The translations under genes and the position numbers were made by a program. The notes under the pieces are model-generated. The model was not told where the DNA came from and did not search any database. It saw only the letters and a program-made list of their open reading frames with translations. A DNA stretch of 64,000 nucleotides from Echinarachnius parma (lineage: Eukaryota > Echinodermata > Echinoidea > Clypeasteroida > Echinarachniidae), in contig JBAMJV010003818.1 of the NCBI GenBank assembly GCA_037951105.1, positions 62,001 to 126,000 on the forward strand, written 5' to 3'. Shown one piece after another: positions 1-54,304 of this stretch; the first letter of the stretch is position 1, and every line of letters begins with the position of its first letter.

Positions 1-19
1 CACGCCCCGAGCCCCTGTG

Positions 20-199
20 TATTTTTTCTCTGGCATGGATGGAATTGGCTCTTGCTTCTTGCTCTAGGAACTAAGGTCAAAGGTCAAGGTTAAATCTGGA
101 CTCACCTGTAGTCTACATTCGGGTACCAGGAGCCCCTGCCAGCCACACAGCATTGCGTAGCTTACAGATGGAATCAGCACTTGCTTCTTCAGCTGGGCC
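20..199 (-). pseudogene. Truncated copies of HERC2 exon 26 (3' part)
   Basis: At 106-199 the donor-side two thirds of exon 26 recur with a GTGAGT donor, 183 bp from the real one. A shorter third trace (about 36-66) repeats the stretch around the Lys-Lys-Gln codons. Confidence 0.85.
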
Positions 200-288
200 A
201 TTCAAAAGAGCAAGCCCTACACCCAGTTTTCATTAAGTACTACATGCTCTTGGAAATTAGGTCAAAGGTCAAAGCTGACTGAACTCAC

Positions 289-425
289 CTGTGATCTACA
301 TCTGGTTCCAGTAACCCCTGCCAGCCACACAGCATTGCATAGCGAACGGACGGAATCAGCTCTTGCTTCTTCAGCTGAGCTATCATGGCCTCTGACCCGG
401 CTAGCCGACACTCCGCCCTCTCCAA
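289..425 (-). CDS. HERC2: HERC2 exon 26 (last exon in window)
   Basis: 137 nt. It begins [10 protein letters not shown] (human LERAEVRLEG) and includes [14 protein letters not shown] (human SVQYAMFCGWQRLI). Acceptor GTCGCAG, donor GTGAGT. The next exon lies beyond the left edge. Confidence 0.94.
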
Positions 426-1802
426 CTGCGACAAGACAAAGGAAGGAAACACATTTAGATCATATTTTTCTGGGGGGCTACTTTACAACCATTTCAATTA
501 TTTCAGACCCAGCTTGCCTGTTCTACACTTGACCCTCTAAAAATATGACAAGAACAAGTATGGGGCATATTTAATTGAATTTTAAGGGGGCTACTTTCAA
601 CCATTTCAGTTATTTCAGACCCAGCTATATTATACTCTGCCCTCATTCAATTATAAAGAACACAAAGCATGGGGGAATTAAACTTTATTTTAGGAGGCTA
701 ATGCAAGCCTCCACACTAACTTTTTTCTCTACTGGCCCTTTCAGGCAAGTACAATCATAAATTTTGAAGGTTTACTTGCCCCAATATAAAATTTACTTGC
801 CCTCTTACTTCTTGATGAGATTTAGATGTAAGAAATTACATTGTTCTCTTATAGTTGAACAATTATTTAGTTGCCTGATCGAGCAAGCATCTATCTATCT
901 ATCTACTGCAGTTAAATGGTATGGCATATATTTATCAAAGACACACATAAAAGTCAGTACGTTCCTACCTGACAATAGAGGGCTCTCCTGAGCTTTTCAG
1001 TGTTGACGTTTTCTGAGTGGATGGCGAAGTCGATGATCTCGGTCATGAGGGCGGTCTGGGATGCCGACCCCGTCATGCGCTGTCTCAACCACTTGAACTT
1101 CCTCGCACTCGTTATGGCATTGGCGACCGACTTCCAGGAGTCCTATAGAGAACAACAAAAAATGATCGTAATTAAAGTTGATTGCATAGAAATTCAAGAA
1201 ACAAAGCAGGGAAAAAATACATGGTATATTCAAGGGGTTACTTTTCATTACATTTGGGGTAGGTAGTGCTGTAACCGATCATCGGATCGGCATGCCGATC
1301 ACGATCCGATCATACATGATCGGACCGTTTTTGCCGATTTCCGATCATGCAGAAAAAATCGGAAGATCGGATCGGCAAAAAAAAAAAAAAAAAAAAAAAA
1401 AAAACTTGTTTTTTTTTCTTTGGAAAATGATCCCAAAAAACATATTTTGGGAATATAAATGAATACCAAAGCAACATATATCCATATTAATAAGCCCAAG
1501 GTAATCTTGTATGGGTATGCTTTCATTTAAAAGTGATTACCTCTCCTTTTACAAAATTATTCGCGCCGATTTTGAGCTTAGTCCCATGTGTTTCTGAAAG
1601 GTTACGCCAAATTAATCACATGGGACTAAGCTCAAAATCGGCGTGAGTAATTTTGTAAAAGAAGAGGTAATCAGTTTGAAATGAAAGCATACCCGTGCAA
1701 GATTACCTTGGGCTTATTAATATGGATATATGTTGCTTTGGTATTCATTTATATTCCAAAATTGTGTTTTTGGGGGATCATTTTCCAAAGAAAAAAAAAA
1801 CG

Positions 1803-1844
<42 letters not shown>

Positions 1845-4800
1845 GCCCATCATCCGATCCCAATCATCGATCCGATTTCGAAGATCGATAAAATTTTGCC
1901 GATCCGATCAAACGATCCGATCATCAAGGTCAGTTACAGCACTAATTTGGGGGTGGCGGCTACTCCCCCATTATGAGCTACATCTAAACTTACCATGTCT
2001 CTGAGTTTCCTCTCTGTCTTGCTGTGCTGGCTGGCTTTGCCAGGGAATATCTTGACCACTCCTTCGTTGGGAGAGGGGCTGGTGGGGGTGGTGCCAGTAG
2101 TAGGGGTGGTGGCAGTGGTGATGGTGGAACTACTTAGCAACGTGAGCTACATCTAAACTTACCTTGTCTCTGAGTTTCCTCTCTGTCTTGCTGTGCTGGC
2201 TGGCTTTGCCAGGGAATATCTTGACCACTCCTTTGTTACAAGAAGGGGCCGATGTATGTGACCATTCCCTCAAATACCTTCTAACTGCGAGGACACAAGT
2301 CTCTTCATAGCAAGCATAAGCTTAACTTACCTTGTCTCTGAGTTTCCTCTCTGTCTTGCTGTGCTGGCTGCCTTTTCCGGGGAATATCTTGACCACTCCT
2401 TCGTTGGGAGAGGGGCCGGTAGGGGTGGTGCCAGTTGTAGGGGTGGCAGTGGTGGTTGAGGCTGAGGAGGTCGGAGTAGAGGCAGCAGAGTCTGGATCAT
2501 CTTCTGTCTTCTGCTTCCCTTCCTTGTCTGCTCTGGCTCCTCCTAGCATCAATCATCAGGACGGTGTAGTTGTATTAAGCAGCATTCAACATGCACATGT
2601 CTTTATTCAAAGCTTGAAATTAGCACAGACCCACTGGACTGGGGCCACTAAAAATAAGCTTTGGGCACCAAATTTCATTGATACGTAATTTAACTGGGCT
2701 GAATGGGCAACTTAATATAATAGAGTTTGACATGATTTTCTTTGTTTGGGGCAATCAGATTCAGGTTTCAGCCACTAGATTTAAAGAATCTTGTTTTTAT
2801 ATGGCCGACTGGGCCAGAAGGCAAAAAAGTTACATTCTAGCATATTTTGTATGTATGCATCTTATTTTAAGTTCTGTGCATATATCGGAAAGAAAATGTT
2901 TGTAAGTTTTATAATTATGCATACCTGCAGAGACCGCTGCCCGCTTCTCCCTGATCATCCTCTGGACGATCCTCTTCCAGCGGGGCGGGGTGTTGAGGAT
3001 CCGCAATCTGGACAGGGCAGACACCTCGTTGGCGATGGCCGGACGCAGCTCGTTGAACAGGAACCTCAGTCTCTCGATGACGGGAGCACATAGCTCCTCA
3101 TAGCTCAAAGTTCTCTCTTGATGGATCTGGCAAACAAGGAAATAAATGAAAGATACTCCAGTCATTTCTTACATTTCAGGATTCATAATGATTACTGGTA
3201 ATGGATATTTGTAAAAAATAGCTTAAGTATGATCATTAAAACTGTACATAAACACATTTGAACGACTTAACATACCTTGACCAATGTGCGCTTTGCCTGG
3301 AAGACCACCTTGCAGACGTCGGCGATGGACCTCGGCACGAACGCATGGTGGTGCCTGTGGATGGCCGTGGGGACCCCCTCAGTCTGCAGGCTGTGCTCCA
3401 CCACAGCCAGGGCCACGTGACCCAGGTCATGGTGCTTCAGGATGCAGGCCATGAGCAGGCGCGACACGTTGTCCATCCCGTTGGCTGGGCAGAAGTCGAT
3501 GGGTAGCACCAGGTGGTGTGAGCGGCAGTAGCGGTCGCACTGGGCCAGGAAGGTCTTCACATTCAGATCCTGGAGCCTGCCTTCGGCTAGCGCCTGCAGG
3601 AAGGGCTTGGCGACGTCTGCCTGGGAGGCGCAGCGGGAGAAGGACTTCATGTTGTCATCCAGCTTGTGCAGCTGTGGAGGCACTGCGTCCTGGCTGGGGG
3701 ATGTCAGCAACGCAGGACCCTGCTGCTGCTGTTGGTCGGAGGCAGAGCTGCCAGCCGTTGCCGGACGTTCACCTATGTTACTTCCATCACCTCGCTCAAA
3801 GTAGCTGGGTCGCTGGCCCAGCTGCATCCCGCTGCTGAACAGCCGTGACTTCAGCCAGGACTGGTACTCCACTTCCGGAGGGGTGAGCGGGAGGCTCCGG
3901 GCCTGGTGGCAGGAGTGCAGACCCAGCAGCAGGCCCAGGGCCCTCTCGGTGTCCATCAAGGGGGAAGAGATTACCCCGCTGTTGACACTCTGGATCTCAT
4001 CTTGCTCGGGCTACAGAGGAATACAAGGTGTAAAGGGGATATGAAGGATAACAACAAACGAGAAGTAAGAGATGTAAATGGATGAAATAACCATACCACA
4101 AATACGGTGTTAGTCTACATAGGGTGCCATCCCAATGCTAATTATTCTTACTTAAATACTGTTTGATTTAATCATTCTTATCTCATATAATATAAATTTA
4201 AACATTAATATTATATAAATATTACATTTATGACATATTGCATTTGTCAAGTAACATCCGACTGACACTGTACGTTATGCCCAGCTTTCAGAGGGAAAAT
4301 GTTTGCAACTTAAAGAACGTAAGATAAATAAAACATTTATCTTTAGTACGTTAGACATATACTTTTTGTTAATGAAACATAATTGAACATGCAAAGAGAA
4401 GAACGGACAAACATACCTCTACATAGACACCAACAAGGAACTGCTCTCTCATCTGCAGCACCTCAGTGGACTGATGGCCCTGGGCGGCATGGAAGGCTTC
4501 TGTGGCATCACGAGCTGTGAAAAAACAATTGAAAAGAAAAAAGAAGCATACATTTGAACTTTCATTCCAACTTCATATTAAATTTTAATAAAAAAATTTA
4601 TATAAAGCATTTTTCTAGGTATCTTATTCAGAGGCACTTTATCATTATCCTTGCTCATTAGGTACAGTTCAAACCCACACAATTAGCTTCTGCACAATCT
4701 CAACTTCCTGAAGAGCATACTAGCATACTTTCTTACCTATATACAGTGCGAGTCAAAAAAAACAAAACCGGACTTTGATAGCTTATAAATCCACAATTAC

Positions 4801-6257
4801 AAACATATATATGCTGATATTGGTATCACATTAAAGCTTGGGAAATTGCCTTTAAAATGATATATAACACATTTTGAGCACTTTACGCATCATCGAGCAA
4901 GATCTTATTATCCAAAGTCATGCAAAAACTACCCGTGTCCAAGTTTGCCGTCGTCTTGTTCTAAACACAACAAAACAAGTTAAGTCCCCCCTAATCAAAA
5001 TAGCATAACTTTTTAACGAAAAAGTTTTGAGCAAAATAACTTGAGCAGGATTGTTTATACACTTATTGAATAATGTGCGAAAATAAAATTGGTCCGTCGA
5101 GTCACGCATGAGTGAGCACACATTAAAGACAAAATGTTCACTTTTTGACTCTTGTGACTTTTGAAAAGTGACAATTTTGCCTTTAATTTGTGCTCACTCA
5201 TGCATTACATGGCGGATCAATCTTATTTTCACAGAAAAGCTAGTCAATCAGTGTAGGAACAATCCTGCCAAGTTATTTTGCTCAAAACCTTATCGTTTTT
5301 ATGCTATTTTGAATAGGGGGGACTTAGGTTTTTTGTTGTGTTTATCATGAATGAATGCGTCTGTTTACGTTTTCTTCTTCAAAGTAACATTTCAAAAATA
5401 TCATTTGGTGAATCACAACAAAATATCAGGTGGTTGCCAGTTTTGTCATGTTTATCAGGGTGGAAGGGGATCACACACTGTCCTCACATCAGCAACCACA
5501 CTGTTTGGAGGGAGGGGCCCCTGAATAGGACATGCAGGATGAAGTTATCTTTGACAATCAAACAACAGATGCAACCATTCACAAAACAAGAACACTGCAA
5601 ACTTGGACACGTAGTTTTTGCATGCCTTTGGATAATTAGGTTGCGTTCGGTGAAGCGTGAAGTGATCAAAGTGTATGATATATCATTTTAAAGGGAAGTC
5701 CTCAAGCTTTAACATGATACCAATATCAACATATATACTTTTGGATTTATGGATTTATAAGCTATCAAAGTCCGGTTTCGGTTTTTTTGACTCGCACTGT
5801 AGAGTAGTAATGATTGGTAAGAAAGTATATTTGAACTTTATATTGAACTTCTTTATTCAAATCTGTTTAAATTGTAACTATATAAAGTACTGTTATGTTT
5901 TTGGTAGGAAAGACCTACTGGCAATTAAAGTTCAAGATTTATTGTTCATGCTGTGCAACTTTAATTGGTTCACCAAAGGTCCTTTGTACTAGTATTTGCA
6001 ATGTAAGGATCATTGTTGTGCTTATTCCCATAGCTTACTAATATTATAAATTCTGCATTATCATCACCATCATCATCATCATCATCATCATCTTATTATC
6101 TAGGGCTACTGACCTGCATACTGCTGCAGTGTGTCGGTCCCGCATGGAGCCACCGTGTGGAAGTCCTTGAGGTCATAGACCCTGCCTTCTATCACCACCC
6201 ACAGCCCTAGATAACTTACTTAATAACATTATGAAATACGGCATTATCATCATTATT

Positions 6258-6289
<32 letters not shown>

Positions 6290-9200
6290 TGCCGGCTACT
6301 GACCTGCATACTGCTGCAGTGTGTCGGTCCCGCATGGAGCCACCGTGTGGAAGTCCTTGAGGTCATAGACCTTGCCTTCTATCACCACCCACAGCCCTCC
6401 GTCCTTGTTGTGGTTCTCCAGGTCAGCTTTCCTGATCAGGGGCACCTCATCCGGCGACACGGGCTCAGAATTTACGCTGATTGGCGTTCCTGCAAACAGG
6501 CAAACAAAATAAAATTTGTTAAATATCCCATTCCTTCCAGATTCTGAAATCCCCATAGAAAAAAAAATATCATCAAACTGAACTAATGTAAAAGGGGTAA
6601 ATCATATCATTTAAGTTCTACAGTGTGTATGCATGTATCAATTCAAGCACTGTTTATGATATTGGTTTTCTGCATTCTCCCTCTTTCATTTTCTTTCCCA
6701 GTTTGTAAATTAGAATTGTAATCATTTAATCTATATTACTTACATCTATGTTATATTATTTCTAAAATTTACTGATTGTAATTTTGTATACATTTCATAC
6801 GGAAAATGCAGAAATAACTACTGAAACTTAAACTTAAATAATATCCTAAATTTTCAGGTGAACACAATATCCTTTGATCTACCCAAAACATAGTATGGGG
6901 CTGGAGGTGAAAAAACCCACTTGAAGTGGCAGACAGGCCAGGCCAGGCTAGGTCATCGGAATCCTCCTTGTCCAGGGCTGGAGCCAGCCGGTTGAAGGCG
7001 TCCAGCATGTCCAGTAGGTCCACCAGGCCGGTGACGGCTCCGCAACGCTGGATGATCAGAGGACACTTGTTCTGCAGCAGCACAAGGCACGTCACCAACT
7101 CTGGCAGCAAGACACCTGTGAGCATGAATGATGTACATTTATTCATGAGTGAGCACAACTAATTTCCATATAATAACTAGATGGATCTTCGATTGCGCGC
7201 AATCGAAAATTATGTCTCCGCTATCACGCGATTTTAATATCAAGCCCAAATTAACATGCACTGATTTAATTTTTTTAAATATTTTTCTTATATTTTGAGT
7301 CCTGTGACCTTGACCATATGACCCCAATCTTTGATGGCTCCCTAAAATACAGTCAGGTACCAAGTTTGATTGAAATCTGACATTTAGTTCTTGAGATTTT
7401 GGTATTACAAGCTTTTTTGCATGTATAATGAGTCCCGTGACCTTGACCTCAATCTCATGACCCCAACATTTTATGGCTACATTGACTCTTTATGATACAT
7501 TCAGGTACTAAGTTTGATTGAAATCTGACATTCAGTTCTTGAAATTTTGCAATTACAAGCCATTTTCGCATACATATTGAGTCCTGTGACCTTGACCTTT
7601 GACCCCATGACCCCCCAAATCTAATCGGATCAGTGGCACCCCGATATGTACACTCATACCTAGTTTGTAATTGATCCGTCAACCGGTTCTTGAGATATCG
7701 CAAGAACGAGGCATTTTTGCACATACATCGAGTCCTGTGACCTTGACCTTTGACCTCATGAACCCCAAAATCTGATCAGATCATTGCCACCCCAATATCT
7801 ACACTAATACCAAGTTTGAATTTGATCCGTCAACCAGTTCTTGAGATATCGCGAGAACGAGGCATTTTGCATATATATTGAGTCCTGTGACCTTGACCTT
7901 TGACCTCATGACCCCTAAAATCTAATCAGATCATTGTCACCCCAATATGTACACTAATACCAAGTTTGAAATTGATCCGTCAACTGGTTCTTGAGATATC
8001 GCGAGAACGAAAACGGGACGTACGGACGGACGGACGGACGGACGGACGGACGGACAACCCGAAAACATAATGCCTCCGGCCACTTTGTTGGCGGAGGCAT
8101 AAAAAAGAATGAATGAATGAACGAATGAACAAACAAACGAATGAAGAACAAACAGAGGAATGAACAAATTATCAAATTAACAAACCAACGAATGAACTAA
8201 CAAATGAATGAATGAGAAGTCTGTTCACCTGATAGGTCTGACTCTATGATGTCAGCGACAGAAGCAAACTGCTTGGGAGATCTTGAGGCCAGGTTTGTTG
8301 CTGTGGGCATGATGTCTCTGATGTGAGTCATCAGAAGAGTGATATACTTCTTGAGTAGAGAACCAGCACCGAGCAGCTCAGCATCTACAGGAGTGACAAG
8401 AAACAAGTCAAACTGTCAAACATAAGCTGGGCAAATAATTAACATTGTCACAAACATCAAATAGCGTCTCTTTTGGCGTCTTTTGAAGGTCTGAAAAAGT
8501 GCAGGATTTGTAGGGTTAAGATTGTACTGACCTGTTCCCTGTGAGCACGCCTTGAGTTTCTCCTCCTCAAAGGGGAAGAGTGTGTGGACGAGAAGGCGCT
8601 GGAACTTCAATAGGAGCTCCAGAGAGGTGGACTTGACCCTAGACGTCATCTTGTCCGAGTGCTGCTCCAGCTTGTTGAACTCTGCCGACAGCTCCTGCAG
8701 CTTGGACAGGGTCAGGGAGGAAGCATTCCTACAGAGAAGAAGGGAACACAGAATGAGAAAGGGTCAACATTTGTACAGATGACTATGTTGAATTGTTAAG
8801 AAAATGTTTTATCAAAGAGGAGGACATGACCCCAGGACATCATCTTTGTCCGAGTGCTGCTCCAGCTTGTTGAACTCTGCCGACAGCTCCTGCAGCTTGG
8901 ACAGGGTCAGTGAGGAAGCATTCCTACAGAGAAGAAGGAAACACAGAATGGAAAAAGGTCAAAATTTGTACAAATGATTATGTTGAATTGTTAAGAAAAT
9001 GACTTATCAAAGAGAGGTGGACTTGGCCCACGACGTAATCTTGTCTGAGTGCTGCTCCAACTTGTTTAACTCTGCAGACAGCTACTGCAGCTTGGACAGG
9101 GTCAGTGATGAAGCATTCCTACAGACGTTACACAGAACACATAATGGGAAAGGGCCAGCATTTCTACAGACATAATTTTAACTAAAATCAAGATATTAGC

Positions 9201-24200: not shown

Positions 24201-27200
24201 TTCCCATCAGATGTTGTAATTAAATTACAGTACATACATACATGTACTTTGTACATTAACGTGTCAAGTAGACTCTTACAAGTGATCTATATGTTAATAG
24301 AGTATGTGACAAAGTAAACATATTCATGCAGTCCAATACATACATTTTCTACTTGCAATTGATCAACCATTCAATTTAAGAATAAATATTTAAGGTGCAC
24401 CTGTAAAGTGTCAGATATTGCCCAGAATGACATTTGAGACTTCAATCCTGTACCAAAATCATTGTAAGATATGTTCGAATGATGTGTGAAAGTTTCATTA
24501 AAAAAGAACACTGCTTTCCTGGTTAAAAAAGCGAAAATATGCGTCAGCTTTTACAACGAATTACTGTATGACATTTATGAGGTTTATGACCGTTCATTAA
24601 CGCTCTTGACCTGAATGATAGATATCGTCATACTAAAGGGGCATTTGAAAAAATCTAACCCTATTTTATTCTTCTCTTACCATAAGCTAAACAACACGGT
24701 AGAAGAGAAACGAGGAAGCTCCAAGTAATTTTCGTGGAGTTAGACACTTTACAGGCATGTATGTACATATATGTAGTATTCATTTCCTTTATGAACCTAG
24801 CTTATTGACCTTTATACACATTATGATTTTACAAAACAATGTAAACTACGGTTTACCTTATCTTTGTGTAAACACATGAGATTACAAAATGGAGGAATCA
24901 AAAACAAAGTGTCGAACATTAATTTATTAATCCAATTTTCTTTGCTCATTTTTCATTAATCTAATTCATCTTAGAATCTAGCCTTTACCATCAAAACCTT
25001 CAATATCTACCGCAGAATAGTTCACATTGTAATACAAAACAGAGACAAAAGAATACAATTCTATTACGGGAGACGTAAAAGAAAGATATTCTGCTCTTTG
25101 AAAATGTCAATAAACACATGATTTTACGAAACAATGTAAACTACAGTTTACCTTATCTTTGTGTAAACACATGAGATTACAAAATGGAGGAATCAAAAAC
25201 AAAGTGTCGAACATTAATTTATTAATCCAATTTTCTTTGCTCATTTTTCATTAATCTAATTCATCTTAGAATCTAGCCTTTACCATCAAAACCTTCAATA
25301 TCTACCGCAGAATAGTTCACATTGTAATACAAAACAGAGACAAAAGAATACAATTCTATTACGGGAGACGTAAAAGAAAGATATTCTGCTCTTTGAAAAT
25401 GTCAATAAACACATGATTTTACGAAACAATGTAAACTACAGTTTACTTTATCTTTGTGTAAACACACGAGATGACAAAATGGAGGAATCAAAAACAAAGT
25501 GTCAAACATTAATTTATTAATCCAACATTCTTTGCTCATTTTTCATTTATCTAATTCATCTTAGAATCTAGCCTTTACCATCGAAACCTTCAATATCTAC
25601 CGCAGAATAATTCACATTGTAATACAAAACAGAGACAAAAGAATACAATTCTATTATGGGAGACGTAAAAGAAAGATATTCTGCTCTTTGAAAATGTCAA
25701 TAAACAGCAGCTGTTTGAATCTGAGCTCATTAAACATACATACTGATACATGCAGTGAATATTTAATTAAAGAACCAGTTGAATTCAAACATAGGAGGAA
25801 ACTGACTAGAAATATTTTAAATGAACAAGTTGTGACATCATATACTTAAGTTTGAGATTACTCCATCTAATGCATATGTACATACATGTTTTAAAATGTA
25901 ATTTTACAAATATTGGGATAAATATTGGACAATTATTTCATAACATTATCCCTTCCATCCAGCTGTAACAAATCAGTGGGAAGATTCATACAGGTATGAA
26001 AGAATAAAACAAATATTTGAATCGACATATATAATGGCCCGGTCTAACCATATATCGCAAATCTAATCTAACAACACAATTAGCCCAGCCTGTAGGCTAA
26101 ATGCTACCTTTTTGGCATACTGGTACTGATGAGGAAATACATCCTGTCACTTCTAGCCAAACATTTCCTCTTGGATATCACTAATAAATAATGGAAATAA
26201 TAGTTTTTGTAAACAACTGTTCTCTGCTTTTACTGTTTGACTTCCAAAACAGTTCAAATACAAATCAAGTACAAATCTATTTACAAGACTAATTGCAGTA
26301 ATTTCCTTGAAAAACTGTACAGAGATCCTGAGAAAAGTAATGCTATTGAGCATTTATTAATTATCTTCTTACCCTCTTATCCTCTTAGGGATGGTTGGCA
26401 GGATCTGCTTCATTCAAATATCTCCATGGCAACACTCCAAAAGACTTTCCTGTTAGCTTCAGCTAGTTTCGGTTTAATGACCCACAGAAAAAGGAACAAA
26501 CTTATTTGTCTTTGCTCCCCAAGGAACAAGTTGTGAATATAATGAACACAAAATGTAATTTATCTTATTAGTTAGTTACTTTCAGGGGGAAATCTAATCT
26601 AACCATTGCTCAATCGATTATAATAAAGCATTTTGAACATTAGTGATCGCATTGATTAAAACATTGTTTCCTACGGTTACAGTTTTTCAATACTTGTTTT
26701 AATCTAAGCTCTCTTTTACATCCTTCCCATTTTCTAATCACTTTGAACTTTTTATAATCATATTTCCCCCATTTTTTCACAATTGTACAATGAAATGCAA
26801 TTCACATTTTGTAAAGCACTATGATACAGGTACTAAGCACGCAATGGATACGCTTAAAGGCCCAGTCACATCAGCAAGACCAACAACAGAATGACAGCAG
26901 ACCAAACTAGATGGATCTTCGACTGCGCGCAGTCGAAAATGATGCCTCCGCCATTACGCAATTTATTTATATCAAGCCCAAATCAACATATACACTGAAT
27001 TAATTCTGTACACTGAATTAATTCTGTTAACTCAATTTTGATGGTACTCTGTCTTTTAGATCTTGACGTATCACAATTATGAGCTATCAGTGACCTTGAC
27101 CTTTGCCCTCATGACCCCAAAATCTAATGACTACAATTGTTCCCTAAGATACATTCAGGTATCAATTTGGATTGAAATCTGATATTCAGTTCTTGAGATT

Positions 27201-28657
27201 TCCAATCTCAAGCTACTTTTACATATAATGAGCCCTGTGACCTTTGACCTCATGACCCCCAAAATCTAATCAGTTCATTGGCTCTCCAAGGAACATACAT
27301 GTACCAAGTTTGTTCAGAATCTGTCAATCCCTTCTTGAGATAACGCGATCACGAGCTATTTTTGCATATATAATGAGCTCTGTGACCTTTGACCTTTGAC
27401 CTCATGACCCCAAAATCTAATCAGATCATCGGCCCCCCAAGATACATACATGACCCAAGTTTGGTGAAAATCCGTCAATCGGTTCTTGAGATAACGGGAT
27501 CACGAGAACGGGACGTACGGACGTACGGACGGACGGACAACCCGAAAACATAATGCCTCCGGCTACTTCGTTGCGGAGGCATAATAAAATCAACAACACG
27601 GTTGCTGGGTGATCATAGTAAGCCAACACAATAAATGTAGGCTGCAATGTTTTAGATGGTGCACACGCAAGGCAAAGGGTCGCTGTGGCACGGTCACTGG
27701 GTGATCATAGTACGCCAACGCAATACATGTAGGCTGCAATGTTTTAGATGGTGCACACGCAAGGCAAAGGGTCGCTGTGGCACGGTCACTGGGTGATCAT
27801 AGTACGCCAAAGCAATAAATGTAGGCTGCAATGTTTTAGATGGTGCACACACAAGGCAAAGGGTCGCTGTGGCACGGTCACTGGGTGATCATAGTACCCC
27901 AATGCAATAAATGTAGGCTGCAATGTTTTAGATGGTGCACACGCAATGCAAAGGCTCGCTGTGGCACGGTCACTGGGTGATCATAGTACGCCAACGCAAT
28001 ACATGTGCACTCACTGCGCTGCTACTTTTGGTACGCACACAATGTGTAGGCCGTATTGCTCGCCTCAGTTGTATATTATATCTACGAACGTTGTATATGC
28101 AAAAGCGGTTTAAATTTTGGTGTGCACAGAGACTTAGCTCCCCGAGGTATATCGGCGGCTGCCACAAAGTGGCACTTGGCCTCTCGTTTCATATATTTCT
28201 GGTCAGTTTCCTCTATGATTGAATTGGGTTTTGTTTAAGGGTAGCTTTATGCGTTACCTTTTTTAGCGGGAAACCCAGCAGAGTTGATGATGTTGTCAGC
28301 CATTCCCAGGGTCACTTCCCCCTCTCGCACCAACTCATTCCACAGGTGACTCAAGGTGACATTCCCAAAGGCACCCTGCAATCAAACCAAATAAGAATAT
28401 GAGAACAAATCAACATAATTATATAAATGAGGGGATTGCGGGATATCATATTGGACCCAGAAAAGCCTAGAAATTAGAAAAGCAGCCTTACTTTCTTTCA
28501 TTCCACAGGTCAGTCAATGTGACTTTCCGAAAGGCACCCTCCAATTGCACCAAACAGGATGAGGAGCACAAAACAGGCTTGAGGGCAGAGGCATAACTAC
28601 GGAGGATGGGGGGCAGGTGTCCCCCCCACCCCCCCCCCCCCCCCAAAAAAAAATATT

Positions 28658-28695
<38 letters not shown>

Positions 28696-30927
28696 TAATT
28701 AATTAATTTAATTTAATTAAAACAAATAAAATAAAAAAAACTTTTAAAAACATATCAGGAACATTTTTTTAAATAAAGAAATTCATAAATGTCCCCCCAA
28801 ATTTGTCTGATCACGCTATGTCACTGCTTGAAGTAGATCATATATATATGTATTTATGCTTTAACCCATTCCCTTAGAGATTCTGAAATCTCCATAGACT
28901 TTGTACACAACCCACCCGGTTCCGGTAGTCAAAGGGTTAAAAGGAAAGCACCCTAAATTATCATTGATTACAATGGAAACAAAATTAGCTTGAGCGTAGT
29001 CCTCCATTACAAATAAAATGTCAACATTTCCCCCTGAGCATGATGAGAGATTGGCAACGAGACAAGAAACCCGAGTACAGGGTGAGAGAGGACGAGAGAG
29101 AGAAAGACAGAAAGAGGGGGCGAGAGAGAAATATAGACAGACAGAAAGATAATTGTGCGGGTTTGACCTGTACCTGATGACCAAGGATAATTATAATGCG
29201 CTTTAATAGAAACATTGTATTAAGCGCTATATAAATGTAATATATTATTATTATTATTATAGAGAGACAGATATAAGCAGACAGACAGACTGACAGAAAT
29301 AATTAGGGAGAAAGATGGATATAGACAGAGAGGTAAGCAGATGGGGAAGAATGATGAAGAGAGATAATAAATGTTGGTGGGAGGATAATTAAAGGGACTT
29401 AGTAACATTGTCCAAATGCTCAAAACTTACTTGGAACTCTAGTGGTTCTCTCATACCTTATCATACTCATATTAACAATAAAAGCACGGGACAGGTTACG
29501 GTTTTTCAAATATGAAATTATCTACGGGATGATTTAAGCCCTGTACAAAGTAAGTACAATGAGTTAGTGAATATCACTTTGCATTTTTGCTCATAACTCA
29601 GCCAAAAAACATCCAATCAACGTGAAATTTTCAAACATAACTTTATGAACATATCAGATCTCTCCAATACACATGTTATTTAATCACTCATCACTTTTCG
29701 CACTTGCAAACAAAGTTACTAGATCCCTTTAATGTATGGATGCCAAAAGGTGATATAGAATAAAGAAGTAAAGATGGATATTGAAAGGTGGTGATACATC
29801 AAGATGGATGGAGGGTAGGGAGAAAATATAAACAAATGGGGAGAAATATAACAATGGAATACAAATAAAAAGGAGAAAATATGATAAAGGCAGAGAAAAG
29901 AGACGGGGAGAGAAAAGAGAAGTGAAGAGGTCTGAAAGAGGAAGGAAGGGATGGAGGACATGATTCAGGCAGCGAGAGGTTTCTGATGACAAGCTTGCTA
30001 TACAAATACAGAGCATGACTTCCTTTGCTTCTTCCTATTTACATAAATGATACAATTCATGTAACATGTTTCATGCCTACAACCAGGTGACAAGCACACA
30101 TACCATACTATTTTTTGGAACTTCTCATTAACATTTCAAAATTTTGACAAGATTTTTAAAAAAGTGTTGTCTGCATTATTTCATATATGATTGCAATCAA
30201 CTACATCTATCACTAATTTTCCATTACGGTATTCTAATTATTGTTTTCAAAATATTTTGAAGATGCTTTGTTTCGGGAAACATTAACAGTCAAACTTGTG
30301 TTATTGGCCACCTGTCTAGCAGCCAACCTGATAGTGGCCACCAAAAGTGATCCCATGTAGAGAAAAGCATTGTTATAGAATTGTCTTTACAGCTTACCTG
30401 TCTGCAAAGGCTATTTGTCTTGTTTCCCATAGGTGTTCACTATAATGACTATAGTACTAACTTTAATAACCAATTTTAAATAGAGAGGCACGACTCACTT
30501 GAATATCAATCTTGAGCCACTTTGTGTCGAGGCGCGGCTGGGTGCGCAGTTTGATGCCATGCTTGGTCACCCGTCTACATTAACTACTTTTCTTGTTTTT
30601 CTTTAATAGATGGTATATAGAAAGGTATTATACTACCTTTAATAACCAATTTAAGAGAGACAAGACTCACTTGAATATCAATCTTGAGCCACTTTGTGTC
30701 GAGGTGCAGCTGGGTGTGCAACCTAATACCATGCCTGGTCACCTGTCTACAATGGCTACTTTTCTTGTTTCCCATAGGTGGTCACTATAGAGTATAGACA
30801 GATAATGACTAGTACTAACTTTAATAACCAATTTAAGAGCAGAGACAAAACTCACTTGAATATCAATCTTGAGCCACTTTGTGTCGAGGCGCGGCTGGGT
30901 GCGCAGCCTGATGCCGTGCCTGGTCAT
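289..30927 (-). CDS. HERC2: HERC2 orthologue, 5' part (26 exons, runs off left edge)
   Basis: HERC2 is a giant HECT-type E3 ubiquitin ligase (human protein about 4,800 residues) acting in DNA-damage signalling, centrosome function and protein turnover. The 26 exons listed below read continuously in one frame (5,516 nt, about 1,838 codons) and follow the human protein order from the N-terminus to just before the MIB/HERC2 domain. Recognisable parts are an alpha-helical N-terminal region (exons 1-7), the first RCC1-like domain (exons 8-13), a helical linker (14-19), a cytochrome-b5-like domain (20) and the following helical region (21-26). The MIB/HERC2, CPH, ZZ, DOC, second and third RCC1-like and HECT domains are expected beyond coordinate 1. 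The start at 30927 is preferred over an in-frame ATG at 30972: it gives the same 24 residues before the first intron as in human, and its -3 base is A. Homology was judged from remembered family sequence, not a search. Confidence 0.96.
426..968. repeat. Intron with repeated GGGCAAGTA-type sequence
   Basis: No exon is seen. Two copies of a ~60-bp stretch (about 468-530 and 583-640, sharing ATTTCAGACCCAGCT) are followed by text with TTACTTGCCC. A similar TACTTGCC / GGGCAAGTA family recurs near 10150-10370 and 33990-34160, with GGCCCG-rich relatives at 46000-46250 and 63030-63300. It looks like a degenerate dispersed repeat. Confidence 0.55.
969..1142 (-). CDS. HERC2: HERC2 exon 25
   Basis: 174 nt, phase 0 to 0. 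It encodes [10 protein letters not shown] and KFKWLRQRM (human DKWQPLLSTV and KYKWLKQNV), ending RRALYCQ (human RKCLLKQ). Acceptor CTATAG, donor GTAGGA. Confidence 0.93.
1266..1942. mobile_element. Foldback element with ~330-bp arms
   Basis: GTGCTGTAAC at the left end is mirrored by GTTACAGCAC at the right, both flanked by TA. Almost the whole element folds on itself: GATCGG-rich ends, poly(A)/poly(T) tracts, then a long stretch around GCCGATTTTGAGCTTAGTCC that is mirrored with few mismatches. The loop is at about 1596-1615. No transposase is encoded. TA duplication suggests a non-autonomous Tc1/mariner-type element. Confidence 0.85.
1994..2128 (-). pseudogene. Second truncated copy of HERC2 exon 24
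   Basis: Donor-side ~135 nt including part of the Thr/Pro linker, again with a GTAAGT donor. It lies next to the right end of the foldback element at 1266-1942. Confidence 0.85.
2163..2240 (-). pseudogene. Truncated copy of HERC2 exon 24 (3' end)
   Basis: Donor-side ~78 nt with GTAAGT, downstream of exon 24. Confidence 0.85.
2331..2542 (-). CDS. HERC2: HERC2 exon 24 (low-complexity linker)
   Basis: 212 nt. It encodes a charged and Thr/Pro/Ser-rich linker ([17 protein letters not shown]) ending TERKLRDK. It is poorly conserved, as the human region also is. The frame and the GTAAGT donor support it. The acceptor is TGCTAG. Confidence 0.85.
2925..3126 (-). CDS. HERC2: HERC2 exon 23
   Basis: 202 nt. 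It encodes [18 protein letters not shown], identical to human over this stretch, then [14 protein letters not shown]. Acceptor TTGCCAG, donor GTATGC. Confidence 0.96.
3276..4010 (-). CDS. HERC2: HERC2 exon 22 (large exon)
   Basis: 735 nt, phase 0 to 0. It encodes [14 protein letters not shown] (human [14 protein letters not shown]), a short Gln run, [18 protein letters not shown] (human IQDHNVKDFLCQIERYCR) and [14 protein letters not shown]. Acceptor CTGTAG, donor GTATGT. It is the largest exon here and has no detectable duplicate. Confidence 0.96.
4417..4514 (-). CDS. HERC2: HERC2 exon 21
   Basis: 98 nt. It encodes a helix ending [11 protein letters not shown], matching human MHAFCVGQYLE, and completes the b5-like region. 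Acceptor TCACAG, donor GTATGT. Confidence 0.9.
4744..5799. mobile_element. Non-autonomous Tc1/mariner-like element with nested palindrome
   Basis: The termini CAGTGCGAGTC and GACTCGCACTG are flanked by TA. Outer arms of about 210 bp (4744-4955 and 5585-5799) match with few differences. Between them lies a second, independent inverted repeat (about 4960-5150 against 5160-5345) and ~240 bp of unpaired spacer. No transposase frame. Inserted in the HERC2 intron between exons 20 and 21. Confidence 0.88.
6114..6207 (-). pseudogene. Truncated copy of HERC2 exon 20 (3' part)
   Basis: The donor-side 94 nt of exon 20, nearly identical, downstream of it. Both the real exon and the copy are next to an ATC-trinucleotide microsatellite (6058-6093 and 6238-6290), so the ~190-bp unit includes the microsatellite. 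Confidence 0.9.
6304..6489 (-). CDS. HERC2: HERC2 exon 20 (cytochrome-b5-like domain)
   Basis: 186 nt. It encodes [20 protein letters not shown] and [10 protein letters not shown], the cytochrome-b5-like fold of HERC2. The heme-ligand HPGG motif of true cytochrome b5 is replaced by APCG, so heme binding is not expected. The human protein also lacks HPGG here. Acceptor TTGCAG, donor GTCAGT. Confidence 0.96.
6921..7115 (-). CDS. HERC2: HERC2 exon 19
   Basis: 195 nt. It encodes [13 protein letters not shown] and DDLAWPG, matching human VLLPELVVSIVLL and EELAWPG. Acceptor CTCACAG. The donor AA|GTGGGT is weak but keeps the frame. Confidence 0.92.
7177..8102. mobile_element. Helitron-like element with internal ~115-bp repeats (copy 1)
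   Basis: On the minus strand the 3' end has a hairpin (TTCGATTGCGCGCAATCGAA), 7 nt, then CTAG followed by T, as in Helitron 3' ends. The other end has a GCCTCCG...CGGAGGC hairpin and a GGAC tetramer run. Between are five or six diverged repeats, each with GTGACCTTGACC and ATGACCCC. No 5' TC end is visible, so the class is an inference. Confidence 0.7.
8103..8220. repeat. GAAT/AAAC-type microsatellite
   Basis: A degenerate tetranucleotide tract (GAATGAAT, AACAAACA) directly adjoining the Helitron-like element and reaching almost to exon 18. Confidence 0.85.
8229..8384 (-). CDS. HERC2: HERC2 exon 18
   Basis: 156 nt. It encodes [20 protein letters not shown], matching human GVGSLLKKYTALLCTHIGDI. 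Acceptor CTGTAG, donor GTGAAC. Confidence 0.94.
8532..8728 (-). CDS. HERC2: HERC2 exon 17
   Basis: 197 nt. It encodes [19 protein letters not shown], matching human LDLLLRFQRLLISKLYPGE. Acceptor CTGTAG, donor GTCAGT. It is the complete member of a five-copy set. Confidence 0.93.
8826..9425 (-). repeat. Four truncated copies of HERC2 exon 17 (5' parts)
   Basis: Copies end at about 8923 and 9118 with the CTGTAG acceptor kept. Two more decayed ones lie at 9222-9275 and 9354-9424. All cover the acceptor-side half, sit upstream of the real exon, and lack the donor. Similarity falls with distance from the real exon. Confidence 0.85.
9488..9869 (-). CDS. HERC2: HERC2 exon 16
   Basis: 382 nt. It encodes [20 protein letters not shown], near-identical to human. 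Then follow a variable charged insert with an acidic run (EEEDG) and a basic cluster ([10 protein letters not shown], a possible nuclear signal), and VQQLLR. Acceptor CATTAG, donor GTCAGA. Confidence 0.95.
9870..10713. other. HERC2 intron 15-16
   Basis: No exon is seen. At about 10140-10370 it holds a degenerate copy of the GGGCAAGTA-type dispersed repeat, then a short ATA/ATAATA tract and repeat-like sequence with GTTTCATGAAACG palindromes. Confidence 0.5.
10714..10942 (-). CDS. HERC2: HERC2 exon 15
   Basis: 229 nt. It encodes [20 protein letters not shown], matching human [20 protein letters not shown]. The acceptor CAACAG follows an uninterrupted C run on the coding strand. Donor GTAAGC. 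Confidence 0.95.
11158..11358 (-). CDS. HERC2: HERC2 exon 14
   Basis: 201 nt, phase 0 to 0. It encodes [19 protein letters not shown], matching human [19 protein letters not shown]. Acceptor TTCACAG, donor GTTGGT. Confidence 0.95.
11691..11973 (-). CDS. HERC2: HERC2 exon 13 (end of RCC1-like domain 1)
   Basis: 283 nt. It encodes [14 protein letters not shown] (human [14 protein letters not shown]) and a further blade ending LVCGANQ. Acceptor CCCAG, donor GTACAG. Confidence 0.95.
12296..12346 (-). pseudogene. Decayed copy of the 3' end of HERC2 exon 12
   Basis: About 50 nt coding for a [13 protein letters not shown]-like peptide, matching [13 protein letters not shown] of exon 12. It lies downstream of the real exon and its donor is lost. 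Confidence 0.65.
12447..12618 (-). CDS. HERC2: HERC2 exon 12 (RCC1-like repeat)
   Basis: 172 nt. It encodes [19 protein letters not shown], almost identical to human [19 protein letters not shown], then [12 protein letters not shown]. Acceptor TTGCAG, donor GTAAGC. Confidence 0.96.
12717..12937. mobile_element. 221-bp MITE
   Basis: Inverted termini ATAGCCCGGTCACATAT and ATATCTGACCGGGCCAT, flanked by TA. Inside, CCGTTTG/CGTTTC-rich motifs are partly mirrored. A short non-autonomous element. Confidence 0.75.
12938..13616. other. HERC2 intron 11-12, remaining part
   Basis: A plus-strand open frame of 176 codons at 12942-13472 has no recognisable similarity and an AT-rich composition with no gene context. 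I regard it as chance. The ~80-bp MITE at 13502-13581 lies at its end. Confidence 0.4.
13502..13581. mobile_element. ~80-bp piggyBac-like MITE (copy A)
   Basis: Begins TTAACCCCGTGCC and ends AAAGGGTTAA. Shares internal GAGATTTCAGAATCTC with the element at 28861-28942, in the opposite orientation. TTAA ends are typical of piggyBac-type elements. Confidence 0.65.
13617..13730 (-). CDS. HERC2: HERC2 exon 11 (RCC1-like repeat)
   Basis: 114 nt. It encodes [19 protein letters not shown] and [10 protein letters not shown], matching human PMLVAGLKGLKVIDVACGS and AQTLAVTENG. Acceptor CTGTAG, donor GTACGT. Confidence 0.94.
13834..14243. mobile_element. Inverted-repeat MITE with TTAAAGGG termini (copy A)
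   Basis: Arms containing GTATCACAAATAATG and CATTATTAGTGATAC, with TTAAAGGG-like ends and the internal palindrome GGTTACATAACC. Related copies are at 57403-57826 and a fragment near 26166-26240. Confidence 0.65.
14282..14605. repeat. Two tandem copies of a ~170-bp unit
   Basis: ATGATTTTGGGGGGATGTA recurs near 14299 and 14463 with the following ~120 bp. Intron of HERC2. Confidence 0.85.
14718..14878 (-). pseudogene. Decayed HERC2 exon 10 copy expanded into a short tandem repeat
   Basis: A more diverged exon 10 fragment. A ~48-bp piece coding for the VYTWG region is present three times in a row (CATGTGTACACC recurs), so exon sequence has itself become a minisatellite. Confidence 0.75.
14989..15056 (-). 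pseudogene. Truncated copy of HERC2 exon 10 (3' part)
   Basis: Donor-side 68 nt of exon 10 with the GTAAGA donor, downstream in gene sense. Unit period is about 141 bp, and the flanking intron is repeated too. Confidence 0.85.
15130..15290 (-). CDS. HERC2: HERC2 exon 10 (RCC1-like repeat)
   Basis: 161 nt. It encodes [20 protein letters not shown] and GMYGRLGHG, matching human IACGSTYSAAITAEGELYTW and GNYGRLGHG. The acceptor is TTGCAG and the donor GTAAGA. Confidence 0.96.
15480..15775. repeat. GAAC-type microsatellite
   Basis: An uninterrupted run of GAAC tetramers with occasional AAAC and GAAT variants, in the intron between exons 9 and 10. It makes long artificial open frames (Arg/Ser/Phe/Val-rich) on both strands. 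Confidence 0.95.
15793..15944 (-). CDS. HERC2: HERC2 exon 9 (RCC1-like repeat)
   Basis: 152 nt. It encodes [18 protein letters not shown] and GRLGLGDT, an RCC1 repeat matching human HYLALAATGEVYSWGCGD and GRLGHGDT. The acceptor is CTGTAG and the donor GTAGGA. Confidence 0.95.
16362..16571 (-). CDS. HERC2: HERC2 exon 8 (start of RCC1-like domain 1)
   Basis: 210 nt, phase 0 to 0. It encodes the first blade of the propeller with [11 protein letters not shown] and a [16 protein letters not shown] stretch, matching human EVIGWGLIGWK and CAEKRFLILSRNGRVY. The acceptor is TTTGTAG and the donor GTGAGT. It is the only complete copy in an array of six. Confidence 0.93.
16572..17640 (-). repeat. Array of five truncated HERC2 exon 8 copies, 211-bp period
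   Basis: Five copies of the first ~115 nt of exon 8 with acceptor and intron flank follow one another upstream of the real exon. Exon parts end at about 16783, 16994, 17204, 17415 and 17626. All keep the TAG acceptor, and all are cut at the same point in the exon (after the CMLEV codons), so none has a donor. The leftmost copies are nearly identical to the real exon. The two rightmost share their own substitutions, so the array grew in steps. Confidence 0.9.
17924..18009 (-). pseudogene. Second truncated copy of HERC2 exon 7
   Basis: Another ~206 bp downstream. The same exon part is more diverged and the donor context has decayed. Confidence 0.7.
18129..18215 (-). pseudogene. Truncated copy of HERC2 exon 7 (3' part)
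   Basis: Donor-side part of exon 7, downstream of it, with a GTAAGT donor that looks stronger than that of the real exon. It lies in a repeat unit of about 206 bp. Confidence 0.8.
18335..18493 (-). CDS. HERC2: HERC2 exon 7
   Basis: 159 nt, phase 0 to 0. It encodes [11 protein letters not shown] and [13 protein letters not shown], matching human SFLRYLTLPQD and AHLDRLATPCMPP. The acceptor is TTTTAG and the donor GTCAGT. Confidence 0.93.
18909..19200 (-). CDS. HERC2: HERC2 exon 6
   Basis: 292 nt. It encodes [19 protein letters not shown], matching human [19 protein letters not shown]. The acceptor TTTGTCAG at 19201-19208 was chosen because it restores phase with exon 5 and gives the human spacing. 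A more upstream AG at about 19274 would also be in phase and add 25 residues. The donor is GTAAGT. Confidence 0.92.
19383..19452 (-). pseudogene. Second, decayed 3' copy of HERC2 exon 5
   Basis: A weaker copy covering the leucine-rich [10 protein letters not shown] coding stretch, further downstream. The donor end is missing. Confidence 0.6.
19631..19768 (-). pseudogene. Truncated copy of HERC2 exon 5 (3' part)
   Basis: About 138 nt of the donor-side half of exon 5, downstream of the real exon, with an intact GTGAGT donor and no acceptor end. Confidence 0.8.
19837..20097 (-). CDS. HERC2: HERC2 exon 5
   Basis: 261 nt. It encodes one of the best conserved stretches, with [18 protein letters not shown] and [10 protein letters not shown], nearly identical to human. 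The acceptor is GACAG and the donor GTGAGT. Confidence 0.96.
20158..20226 (-). pseudogene. Truncated copy of HERC2 exon 5 (5' part)
   Basis: The acceptor-side ~70 nt of exon 5, upstream of the real exon. A T-rich expansion (A-rich in gene sense) has disturbed the lysine codons. Confidence 0.7.
20504..20729 (-). CDS. HERC2: HERC2 exon 4
   Basis: 226 nt. It encodes a helical segment with [16 protein letters not shown], matching human [16 protein letters not shown]. The acceptor is CCCAG and the donor GTACTG. Both ends are split codons compatible with exons 3 and 5. Confidence 0.93.
20833..20914 (-). pseudogene. Truncated copy of HERC2 exon 4 (5' part)
   Basis: The first ~80 nt of exon 4 with the same acceptor recur upstream with few changes. 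The copy is cut off inside the exon and has no donor. Confidence 0.8.
21184..21299. mobile_element. ~115-bp MITE with TTCTCATCAGTGGC ends
   Basis: TTCTCATCAGTGGCACAA is mirrored by TTGTGCCACTGATGAGAA. The same terminal motif begins the elements at 52107 and 54330. Confidence 0.75.
21346..21537 (-). CDS. HERC2: HERC2 exon 3, with a cysteine-rich module
   Basis: 192 nt. The second half ([11 protein letters not shown]) aligns with human ILDSWVWGKQP, confirming the placement. The first half holds eight cysteines in 26 residues, including the core [16 protein letters not shown]. This looks like a small zinc-binding knuckle. I do not recall such a module at this place in human HERC2, where the stretch is acidic and low-complexity. 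The acceptor is TTTTAG and the donor GTAAGT. Confidence 0.88.
21636..21725 (-). pseudogene. Truncated copy of HERC2 exon 3 (5' part)
   Basis: The acceptor-side part of exon 3, including the Cys-rich coding stretch, recurs just upstream of the real exon with scattered substitutions. It stops near the Thr-Asn-Gly region and has no donor. Confidence 0.75.
21870..22197. repeat. Near-identical 167-bp tandem duplication
   Basis: GCCGTCTGCATGATCGG and the ~160 bp after it occur twice (21870-22031 and 22037-22197) with no visible difference. Flanked by degenerate GCCCTCGTGA repeats. Intron between HERC2 exons 2 and 3. Confidence 0.95.
22355..23215 (+). mobile_element. tRNA-derived SINE, interrupted
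   Basis: A box A (TGGCTTAGCAG, 22364-22374) and a box B (GGTTCGATCCC, 22971-22981) of a tRNA-type pol III promoter are split by the insertion at 22379-22936. Removing it brings them to tRNA spacing. A non-tRNA body runs to about 23215. Not a functional tRNA, as the anticodon arm and acceptor stem are not recognisable. Confidence 0.75.
22379..22936. mobile_element. TTAA-flanked inverted-repeat element inside the SINE
   Basis: Flanked by TTAA on both sides (22375-22378 and 22937-22940). Ends AGGGCAATGAAA and TTTCATTGTCCT. Long imperfect arms include GGACAACTCCCCATA mirrored by TATAGGGAGTTGTCC. No transposase. TTAA duplication points to the piggyBac group. Confidence 0.8.
23267..23453. mobile_element. 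187-bp MITE with perfect ~26-bp inverted ends
   Basis: GTACGAAAAGTGAAATAAAC at the left is mirrored exactly at the right, flanked by TA on both sides. Non-coding. Confidence 0.85.
23454..24800. other. AT-rich intron sequence, nothing recognised
   Basis: Part of the 6.7-kb intron between HERC2 exons 2 and 3. No exon or repeat with clear boundaries is seen. Confidence 0.5.
24821..25712. repeat. Three tandem copies of a ~298-bp unit
   Basis: TGTAAACTACAGTTTACCTT (variant in the first copy) and the following ~270 bp recur with starts near 24821, 25117 and 25415. Copies 1 and 2 are almost identical; copy 3 has a few substitutions. Each carries the palindrome-like GTAAACTACAGTTTAC. Confidence 0.95.
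25713..26907. other. AT-rich intron sequence
   Basis: Contains a fragment of the TTAAAGGG MITE family near 26166-26240 and otherwise no recognised element. A 99-codon open frame at 26237-26536 shows no family features. Confidence 0.4.
26908..27583. mobile_element. Helitron-like element (copy 2)
   Basis: Same family and orientation as 7177-8102, with fewer internal repeats. The terminal hairpin reads TTCGACTGCGCGCAGTCGAA, a base-paired double change relative to copy 1. It ends with the same GGAC run and GCCTCCG/CGGAGGC hairpin. Confidence 0.7.
27600..28010. repeat. 93-bp tandem repeat, about 4.5 copies
   Basis: GGGTGATCATAGTA recurs at about 27608, 27701, 27794, 27887 and 27980, with TAGGCTGCAATGTTTTAGAT in the first four units. 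Near-identical, directly after the Helitron-like element. Confidence 0.95.
28258..28375 (-). CDS. HERC2: HERC2 exon 2
   Basis: 118 nt, phase 0 to 1. It encodes a segment containing [11 protein letters not shown], matching human LWNEMVKDGEI. The acceptor is TTGCAG and the donor GTAACG. It joins exon 1 and exon 3 in frame. Confidence 0.9.
28497..28538 (-). pseudogene. Truncated copy of HERC2 exon 2 (5' end only)
   Basis: About 42 nt of the 5' end of exon 2 recur upstream of it with several substitutions. The acceptor-side AG is kept and there is no donor end. Confidence 0.75.
28605..28770. repeat. Homopolymer and TAA microsatellite block
   Basis: Runs of C and A followed by TAA trinucleotides and TTAATTAA. 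Probably the decayed core of a repeat related to other C/G-run elements in the window. Confidence 0.8.
28861..28942. mobile_element. ~80-bp piggyBac-like MITE (copy B)
   Basis: Begins TTAACCCATTCCC and ends CAAAGGGTTAA. Inverse orientation to copy A, with the conserved GAGATTCTGAAATCTC core. A fragment of the same core appears at about 58090-58125. Confidence 0.65.
28943..30490. other. HERC2 intron 1-2, repeat-like
   Basis: Contains GAGAGA/GACAGACA purine-rich tracts (29085-29385 and 29780-29960), a TTA tract near 29245 and no exon. Confidence 0.5.
30499..30570 (-). pseudogene. Tandem copy of HERC2 exon 1 (copy 3)
   Basis: A third 72-nt copy, again with GTG in place of ATG, an open frame ending in [11 protein letters not shown], and a GTGAGT donor. 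The repeat unit of about 180 bp includes flanking intron. Confidence 0.75.
30671..30742 (-). pseudogene. Tandem copy of HERC2 exon 1 (copy 2)
   Basis: This 72-nt copy has the same donor (GTGAGT), but the initiator ATG has become GTG. The frame stays open, ending again in [11 protein letters not shown]. An AG dinucleotide sits exactly before the GTG, so the copy could in principle be spliced in phase after exon 1. The tract before that AG is not pyrimidine-rich, so use as an exon is uncertain. Confidence 0.75.
30856..30927 (-). CDS. HERC2: HERC2 exon 1 (initiator exon)
   Basis: It encodes 24 residues ending in [12 protein letters not shown], against RLDSKWLKTDIQ in human HERC2. The donor is GTGAGT directly after the Gln codon, phase 0. 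Another in-frame ATG lies 15 codons upstream (30972), with an in-frame TAG seven codons before that. Translation could therefore start at either Met; the downstream one has the better context. The exon probably continues into 5' UTR. Two shorter copies lie just downstream (30671-30742 and 30499-30570). Confidence 0.9.
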
Positions 30928-30957
30928 CTTCAGGTCCCCACGACCCGGCTTCTCCTT

Positions 30958-31990
30958 CTGTTTCTCCTTCATTGAAGTCTGCTCTTCTGTCTATCTAATA
31001 CCATCCAGTCATCATCGATTGCAGCATGCGGTATACCTGTGCTCATCACAGGTCTATCTTGCACTCTCCTTTATTTCTTGCGGAAGTTTCTTCCCTGGAT
31101 GATAATAAGAAGAAAAATTTAAAAAATAGATAATCATAATATAGCTCAAATTGCAAAGAGCCTAGCTAAGTGTAAGTAGTGTAAAATCAGGGACCTGGCC
31201 GCTGATCCATTCAAGTAGAGTTTGTGTACAGGAGAGCTTTGAAAACAGAGATTCAAGTGAGAGGGTTTAGATTAAATTAGATATTCAAATGTTGATAAGG
31301 TATGATGATAACAAATGATCCGACTAGTCCTTCTGTTTCTCCTTCATTGAAGTCTGCTCTTCTGTCTATCTATTACCATCCAGTCATCATCGATTGCAGC
31401 ATGCGGTATACCTGTGCTCATCACAGGTCTATCTTGCACTCTCCTTTACTTTTTTCTGAAGTTTCTTCCCTGGATGATAATAAGAAGAAAAATAAATAAC
31501 AGATATTCGAAAAATTAAATAAAATATTTTGCAAAGAACCTCTAAGCACTTGTAAGTGTAATTAGTGTAAAATCAGGGAGCTGGTCGCTTATCCATTCAA
31601 GTAGAGTCCGTGTATAGGAGACCTTTGGAAACTGCGATTCAAATGAGAGGGTTTAGTTATAAATTCAAATGTTGATAAGGTTTCATGATCAAAATGATCC
31701 GGCTAGTCATTGAAGTCTGCTCTTTTTTCTTTCTAATACCATCAAGTCATCTTTTATTGATAGCTGCAGCATGCAATACCTGTGCACATCACAGGCCTCT
31801 CTCTTGCCTCTTGTACTCTCCTCTTTTCTTGCTGAAGCTTCTTTTCCTCGGCAATTACTGATTAAAGAAGAGTTTGTGCACAGGAAACCTTTAGGAACAG
31901 AGATTGATTAGTGACAGGATTTAGTCATGAATTCAGATGCACCTTGGAAACAAGGACATTTTGTTGATTAAGGATGATCAAAACTATTTT
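30958..31990 (-). repeat. Three tandem copies of the HERC2 5' flank / 5' UTR region
   Basis: A block of about 380 bp starting beside the upstream Met codon recurs near 31325 and, more diverged, near 31705. Each copy has the shared stretches CATTGAAGTCTGCTCTT and ACCATC(A/C)AGTCATC. It probably represents repeated 5' UTR or promoter-proximal sequence. No further exon could be defined upstream. Confidence 0.7.
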
Positions 31991-52013: not shown

Positions 52014-52071
<58 letters not shown>

Positions 52072-52106
52072 GCAGATCTGCCAACCTGGATCAACAAGTC
52101 ACCAAT

Positions 52107-54237: not shown

Positions 54238-54304
<67 letters not shown>

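Follow-up and report, generated by a model that had tools for sequence, protein, structure and literature searches.

Half of the exons in the 5′ part of a HERC2 gene lie beside truncated tandem copies that very probably are mirage-type minisatellites

Why should half of the exons in one gene lie next to incomplete copies of themselves, and why should the copies on one side keep one end of the exon and those on the other side the other end? The question is raised by a stretch of 64,000 nucleotides (contig JBAMJV010003818.1, positions 62,001 to 126,000; hereafter the window, in whose own numbering all coordinates are given) that holds the 5′ portion of a HERC2 gene, with 26 exons, 13 of them accompanied by such copies. 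Our answer is that these copies are, in all likelihood, mirage-type minisatellites, that is, local tandem duplications spanning one exon-intron border. The locus offers a genuine example of a repeat type already known, one that is both dense and instructive; the strict polarity and the argument from selection that a sequence-only reading of the window had put forward are overdrawn.

The gene lies on the minus strand between positions 30920 and 289, and its 26 exons, a number already given by the sequence-only reading, follow from splice sites and reading frames. A human HERC2 segment served only as a tblastn guide in the exon search, in which exons were found in order across about 1,700 residues; exons 21 and 24 were placed by frame reading, and the borders of several exons (for example 6, 11, 13, 18 and 24) are approximate. 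Independently of this guide, the exon at 6489-6304 (exon 20) matches the HERC2 cytochrome b5 structure 2keo with an E value of 3.2e-14, and Pfam returns Cyt-b5 and RCC1 matches, the two further exons tested matching RCC1 repeats. A search of PDB with exon 22 and a search of Rfam gave no match. The median exon length is 194 bp.

When the window was compared with itself (blastn, word size 7, E 1e-4), local repeats on the same strand touched exons 1, 2, 3, 4, 5, 7, 8, 10, 12, 17, 20, 24 and 26, exactly the thirteen named beforehand, and the identical search returned no local same-strand match in any of five dinucleotide-shuffled windows. Counting by hand from the matches and alignments gave 29 copies, one to five per affected exon as had been claimed, all within about 1.1 kb of the parent exon; no inverted exon copy and none at least 4 kb away was found at E 1e-3. 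One copy, the second downstream copy of exon 26, is cut by the window edge, and 28 can be scored. On the predicted side, 24 of the 28 retain one exon border, and 12 of the 13 exons are represented among them, exon 12 being the exception. Thirteen are upstream copies that keep the 5′ end with the acceptor edge (one each for exons 2, 3, 4 and 5, five for exon 8 and four for exon 17, the two most distant of which were scored by eye from the printed sequence, the aligner having halted at deletions), and eleven are downstream copies that keep the 3′ end with the donor edge (two each for exons 1, 7, 10 and 24, one each for exons 5, 20 and 26). Neither reversed polarity nor a copy with both splice sites occurs among the 28. 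The alignments, that of exon 12 excepted, join intron and exon sequence head-to-tail in units that trace to 14 events, 129-211 bp long (mean 179, s.d. 25), and the two types of edge are hit about equally, with six events at 5′ and eight at 3′ edges if exon 12 is counted among the latter. Over 25 measured copies, the identity of aligned bases is 79-98%. The gene and the affected exons are as follows.

289..30920, minus strand: HERC2 gene, 5′ part, 26 exons, running from high to low coordinates and continuing past position 1; assigned by the Cyt-b5 exon match, Pfam and splice sites.
30396..30929, minus strand: exon 1 (coding part about 30920-30856) with two downstream copies, 30744-30590 and 30569-30415 (offsets 185 and 357), which retain the donor and not the start codon.
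28335..28575, minus strand: exon 2 (28375-28258) with an upstream 5′-edge copy, 28575-28498 (offset 163).
21445..21745, minus strand: exon 3 (21537-21346) with an upstream 5′-edge copy, 21745-21631 (offset 185-188).
20645..21023, minus strand: exon 4 (20729-20503) with an upstream 5′-edge copy, 21023-20830 (unit 194), directly adjacent; this exact adjacency emerged from the self-comparison with no limits imposed.
19387..20279, minus strand: exon 5 (20097-19837) with an upstream 5′-edge copy, 20279-20158 (offset 129), and a downstream 3′-edge copy, 19770-19623 (offset 206).
19501-19387, minus strand: second downstream copy of exon 5, a second-generation copy that ends before the 3′ end of the exon and has no border.
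17915..18421, minus strand: exon 7 (18493-18335) with two downstream 3′-edge copies, 18215-18024 and 18009-17915 (unit 206).
16458..17629, minus strand: exon 8 (16571-16362) with an array of five upstream 5′-edge copies (unit 211).
14663..15195, minus strand: exon 10 (15290-15130) with downstream donor-bearing copies at 15054-14919 (97%) and 14789-14663 (73%, gaps counted).
14788-14872, minus strand: two copies of exon 10, nested, of 40 bp each and with no border, between the donor-bearing ones.
12308..12497, minus strand: exon 12 (12618-12447) with one downstream copy of 38 bp, 12345-12308, covering internal exon positions 122-159 of 172.
8620..9415, minus strand: exon 17 (8728-8532) with four upstream 5′-edge copies (unit about 195), the two most distant with deletions in the exon part.
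6034..6398, minus strand: exon 20 (6489-6304) with a downstream 3′-edge copy, 6208-6034 (unit 190).
1974..2461, minus strand: exon 24 (about 2544-2331) with two downstream 3′-edge copies, 2251-2153 and 2127-1984 (unit about 167).
1..383, minus strand: exon 26 (425-289) with a downstream 3′-edge copy, 201-55 (offset 182), and the start of another.

How would such an arrangement arise? We propose that pieces of DNA of about 130-210 bp would duplicate locally in tandem, spanning one exon-intron border by chance, and that some of these duplications would then amplify into arrays, the copies subsequently drifting mostly as intron sequence. A duplication that begins on one side of an exon-intron border and ends on the other, as the alignments show, leaves the complete exon on the outside with border-only copies on the other side, so that the polarity follows from the geometry of tandem duplication across one border, with no need for selection. 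The complete exon beside the copies has an open frame, candidate splice sites and homology, and is putatively the one spliced. An origin by tandem duplication across a single border, which had been proposed beforehand, is well supported by the alignments and their head-to-tail intron and exon units.

The original paper on a mirage in Adh is reportedly that of Canestro and others in 2002. Mirage minisatellites of amphioxus have been described in Adh3, in the globin genes BflGb6 and BflGb9 and in PGBD5, with further cases cited (PMC3087553, PMC3902484, here and below as excerpted). The BflGb6 mirage has units of 150-160 bp, present as six and three repeats on two haplotypes with 81-100% identity between units (PMC3087553, PMC3902484), and BflGb9 has a 157-bp copy of a 3′ boundary (PMC3087553). 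Their authors call the mechanism unclear. The anatomy is that of the HERC2 copies, with border-spanning tandem units, a complete exon left in place and either edge duplicated; however, the excerpted accounts name, for each globin gene or PGBD5, one border or two, compared with 13 of 26 exons in HERC2.

Does the absence of other kinds of duplication point to selection? The reading which survives best beside the mirage interpretation, and is compatible with it, is a selection filter, in which whole-exon and within-exon duplications arose and were purged, leaving the splice-silent border ones. When the 14 unit lengths are dropped at random on the 26 exons, 81.6% are predicted to cross one border, 5.0% to hold a whole exon and 13.4% to be internal. 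With exon 12 counted as crossing although its copy retains no border, whole-exon duplications number 0 (0.86 expected) and within-exon duplications 0 (2.30 expected), and the probability of finding neither, 0.042, speaks for the filter; the lack of internal duplications is the sole hint of selection. Geometry alone, however, gives about 82% crossing and a probability of 0.058 that all 14 events cross a border, and with so many crossings and only 0.86 whole-exon copies expected by chance the absence of the latter does not show selection. In addition, the exon 12 event may itself be internal, in which case the events match random placement even better; the missing remainder of its copy was not found further downstream (score 19.6, where shuffled sequence averaged 19.4). 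Selection was rejected as an unnecessary cause of the polarity, and the claim that only splice-silent duplications have been tolerated is an inference that class frequencies fitting random placement do not need. Selection on the duplications is possible and not demonstrated, and we hold a filter of this kind to be a tentative reading, somewhat on the doubtful side.

The divergence of the copies agrees with a mirage origin in part. In a set of 14 events, each represented by one copy (among several, the one whose exon part has diverged most), mismatches amount to 34/393, 27/394 and 84/390 at codon positions 1, 2 and 3 and to 91/548 in the intron parts; the corresponding values for all 25 copies are 49/722, 38/725, 124/722 and 152/1291. 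Positions 1 and 2 pooled (61/787 in the 14 events) lie at about half of the intron value, as would be expected if the exon is held constant and only the copy drifts. Stops in the frame of the parent occur in 6 of the 25 copies.

Several observations weigh against the mirage interpretation. Four of the 28 scorable copies carry no border, namely the second downstream copy of exon 5, the two nested copies of exon 10 and the copy of exon 12, which has no donor or any other splice site; the direction of the polarity claimed beforehand therefore stands, its strictness does not. The published units that are excerpted (10-72, 60, 108 and 150-160 bp) are mostly shorter than those of HERC2, of which 3 of 14 are at most 160 bp. 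The excess of mismatches at position 3, a ratio of 2.78 (bootstrap 2.07-3.48), lies above the ceiling of 2 for free drift since birth, and stays at 2.3 when exon 5 is left out and 2.94 when CpG sites are. Gap openings number 9 in 2013 bp of exon parts and 40 in 1289 bp of intron parts, which goes beyond simple halving, in a comparison affected by the aligner's preference for exon stretches without gaps and by the A+T richness of the intron parts (G+C 0.34 in the parent). The position-3 excess and the gap deficit argue against a purely neutral history since birth, and could be accounted for by mutation bias or by exchange between alleles that had diverged.

Such an exchange is central to another reading, which we consider improbable. 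Here tandem duplications of about nucleosome size (179 ± 25 bp) would arise preferentially at exon edges, and the arrays would act as a conveyor, in which unequal exchange between diverged alleles repeatedly pushes a once-functional edge outward as a truncated copy, which would owe its coding-type substitutions to the time it spent in the exon.

Among 21 tandem loci of the gene body, hand-picked from the self-comparison (exon 12 included, exon 5 counted twice, an AACG simple repeat at 15773-15497 and a pair offset by 754 bp at 22380/21626 left out), 14 touch exons, where 30-35% would be expected (P 0.0007-0.003). On the assumption that a pair at an edge remains detectable for 1.6 or 2 times as long, P rises to 0.016-0.12 (0.05-0.12 for the 2-fold value alone); a simulated gain of 1.43-fold for a pair with one conserved member gives 0.008-0.025. 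This excess is suggestive, and is weakened by the hand-picking and by unmasked intron transposons, two of the seven intron-only loci being one dispersed 151-bp family. Suggestive too is the narrow length of the edge units, with a variance ratio at P 0.002 relative to the seven intron-only loci and at 5e-05 relative to the full set of 13 non-exon units (the six upstream ones hand-picked, with the 69-bp unit of the 50.9-56.3 kb arrays included and their 16-bp and 2.2-kb units omitted), and P 0.058 by Levene's test. That copies are younger towards the exon, judged by exon-part identity, holds in five of seven arrays, with exon 1 against and exon 24 tied (P 0.11); by whole-alignment identity the exon 7 array is also opposite, which leaves four of seven, and this age order is not established.

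Could the cell be using these copies? Truncated copies that take part in alternative splicing, or regulate it as decoy sites, would account for the retention of GT or AG in all 22 measured copies, for splice scores at least equal to that of the parent exon in 14 of the 22 (by a simple home-made matrix) and for the third-position excess, and 9 of the 22 extensions from the exon to the site of the copy are a multiple of 3 in length. Against this, every one of the 22 extensions meets an in-frame stop and none could lengthen the exon stop-free, so that use of the site of a copy would add a premature stop, as intron sequence generally would give; unit lengths are divisible by 3 in 3 of the 14 events (P 0.41), and the excerpted accounts suggest that published mirages leave splicing undisturbed (PMC3087553, PMC3902484). 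We consider such a role very unlikely. The copies are orphan sites, not silent for want of signal, and exon definition probably passes over them; these working-looking signals would most likely be ignored because exon definition pairs an acceptor with a donor one exon length apart. The earlier proposal that a copy with one splice site is skipped is in this respect plausible.

Least probable of all is an assembly artefact such as haplotypes laid side by side, since, even if a few copies are nearly identical to their exon (97-98% for the first copy of exon 10, 96-97% for the nearest three of exon 8) and one published mirage was once mis-assembled in a draft genome according to the excerpt of PMC3087553, 17 of the 25 measured copies differ by 8-21%, to a degree that varies among exons, the units are tandem and of merely 129-211 bp, and the window is free of N. 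We prefer the mirage interpretation, because of the head-to-tail units of intron and exon, the adjacency of the exon 4 copy, the polarity of 24 of the 28 copies, the fit to random placement and the lack of any stop-free extension among 22.

Further features of the window, which has a G+C content of 38% (35% in 31-64 kb), were noted as observations in their own right.

7281-8010 and 27076-27506: tandem arrays of the dispersed 151-bp repeat, in two introns.
24823-25707 and 27597-28006: intron arrays overlapping no exon (295 bp, 3 copies, 97%; 92 bp, 4.5 copies, 94%).
30942-31843: tandem duplication of about 376 bp, with about 80% identity and part of a third copy; exon 1 follows directly downstream, so that the duplication would take in the presumed promoter or 5′ untranslated region.
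49704-50729, minus strand: open frame of 341 amino acids, with no Pfam match at E 0.01, perhaps from a mobile element.
51711-56173: direct 2.2-kb tandem duplication, 99.5% identical, amid minisatellite arrays of 69 bp and 16 bp; very recent or an assembly repeat.
57861-58178, plus strand: PAP2-family exon (Pfam PF01569), possibly from a gene that is broken or whose other exons lie far away.

With human PLPP1 as the query, no plausible further PAP2 phosphatase exon was found in the window; the search for a control gene there yielded this single exon.

Tandem duplication of whole exons is a known class that is used in alternative splicing. There, as here, the extra exon sequence adjoins the exon, but each HERC2 copy lacks one border or both, and an exon lengthened to reach it would take in stops. 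The internal gene duplications that create introns (Rogers 1989; Gao and Lynch, as cited in the excerpt of PMC3087553) are likewise short, copy splice signals along and could be the starting point of new introns, whereas the HERC2 copies, set against that excerpt, show no sign of having become an exon or of having created an intron. A literature search (mirage, minisatellite, lancelet, HERC2, internal duplication) gave, among the matches listed and by their titles and the starts of their abstracts, none on HERC2 copies. The kind of repeat is already in print from amphioxus, a link that the sequence-only reading had not drawn, and what seems to be new is its density, with 13 of 26 exons and both types of edge affected in one gene.

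What does this mean for mirages in general? With 14 edge duplications of different ages in one gene, a curiosity known from a handful of amphioxus genes becomes something countable, in its birth rate, its unit length, the decay of its splice signals and, in relatives, any copy that has turned into an exon or intron. It also illustrates that a striking polarity can arise from geometry, selection being unneeded. Should the host lie outside the cephalochordates, mirages would occur more widely than the published accounts, as excerpted, say.
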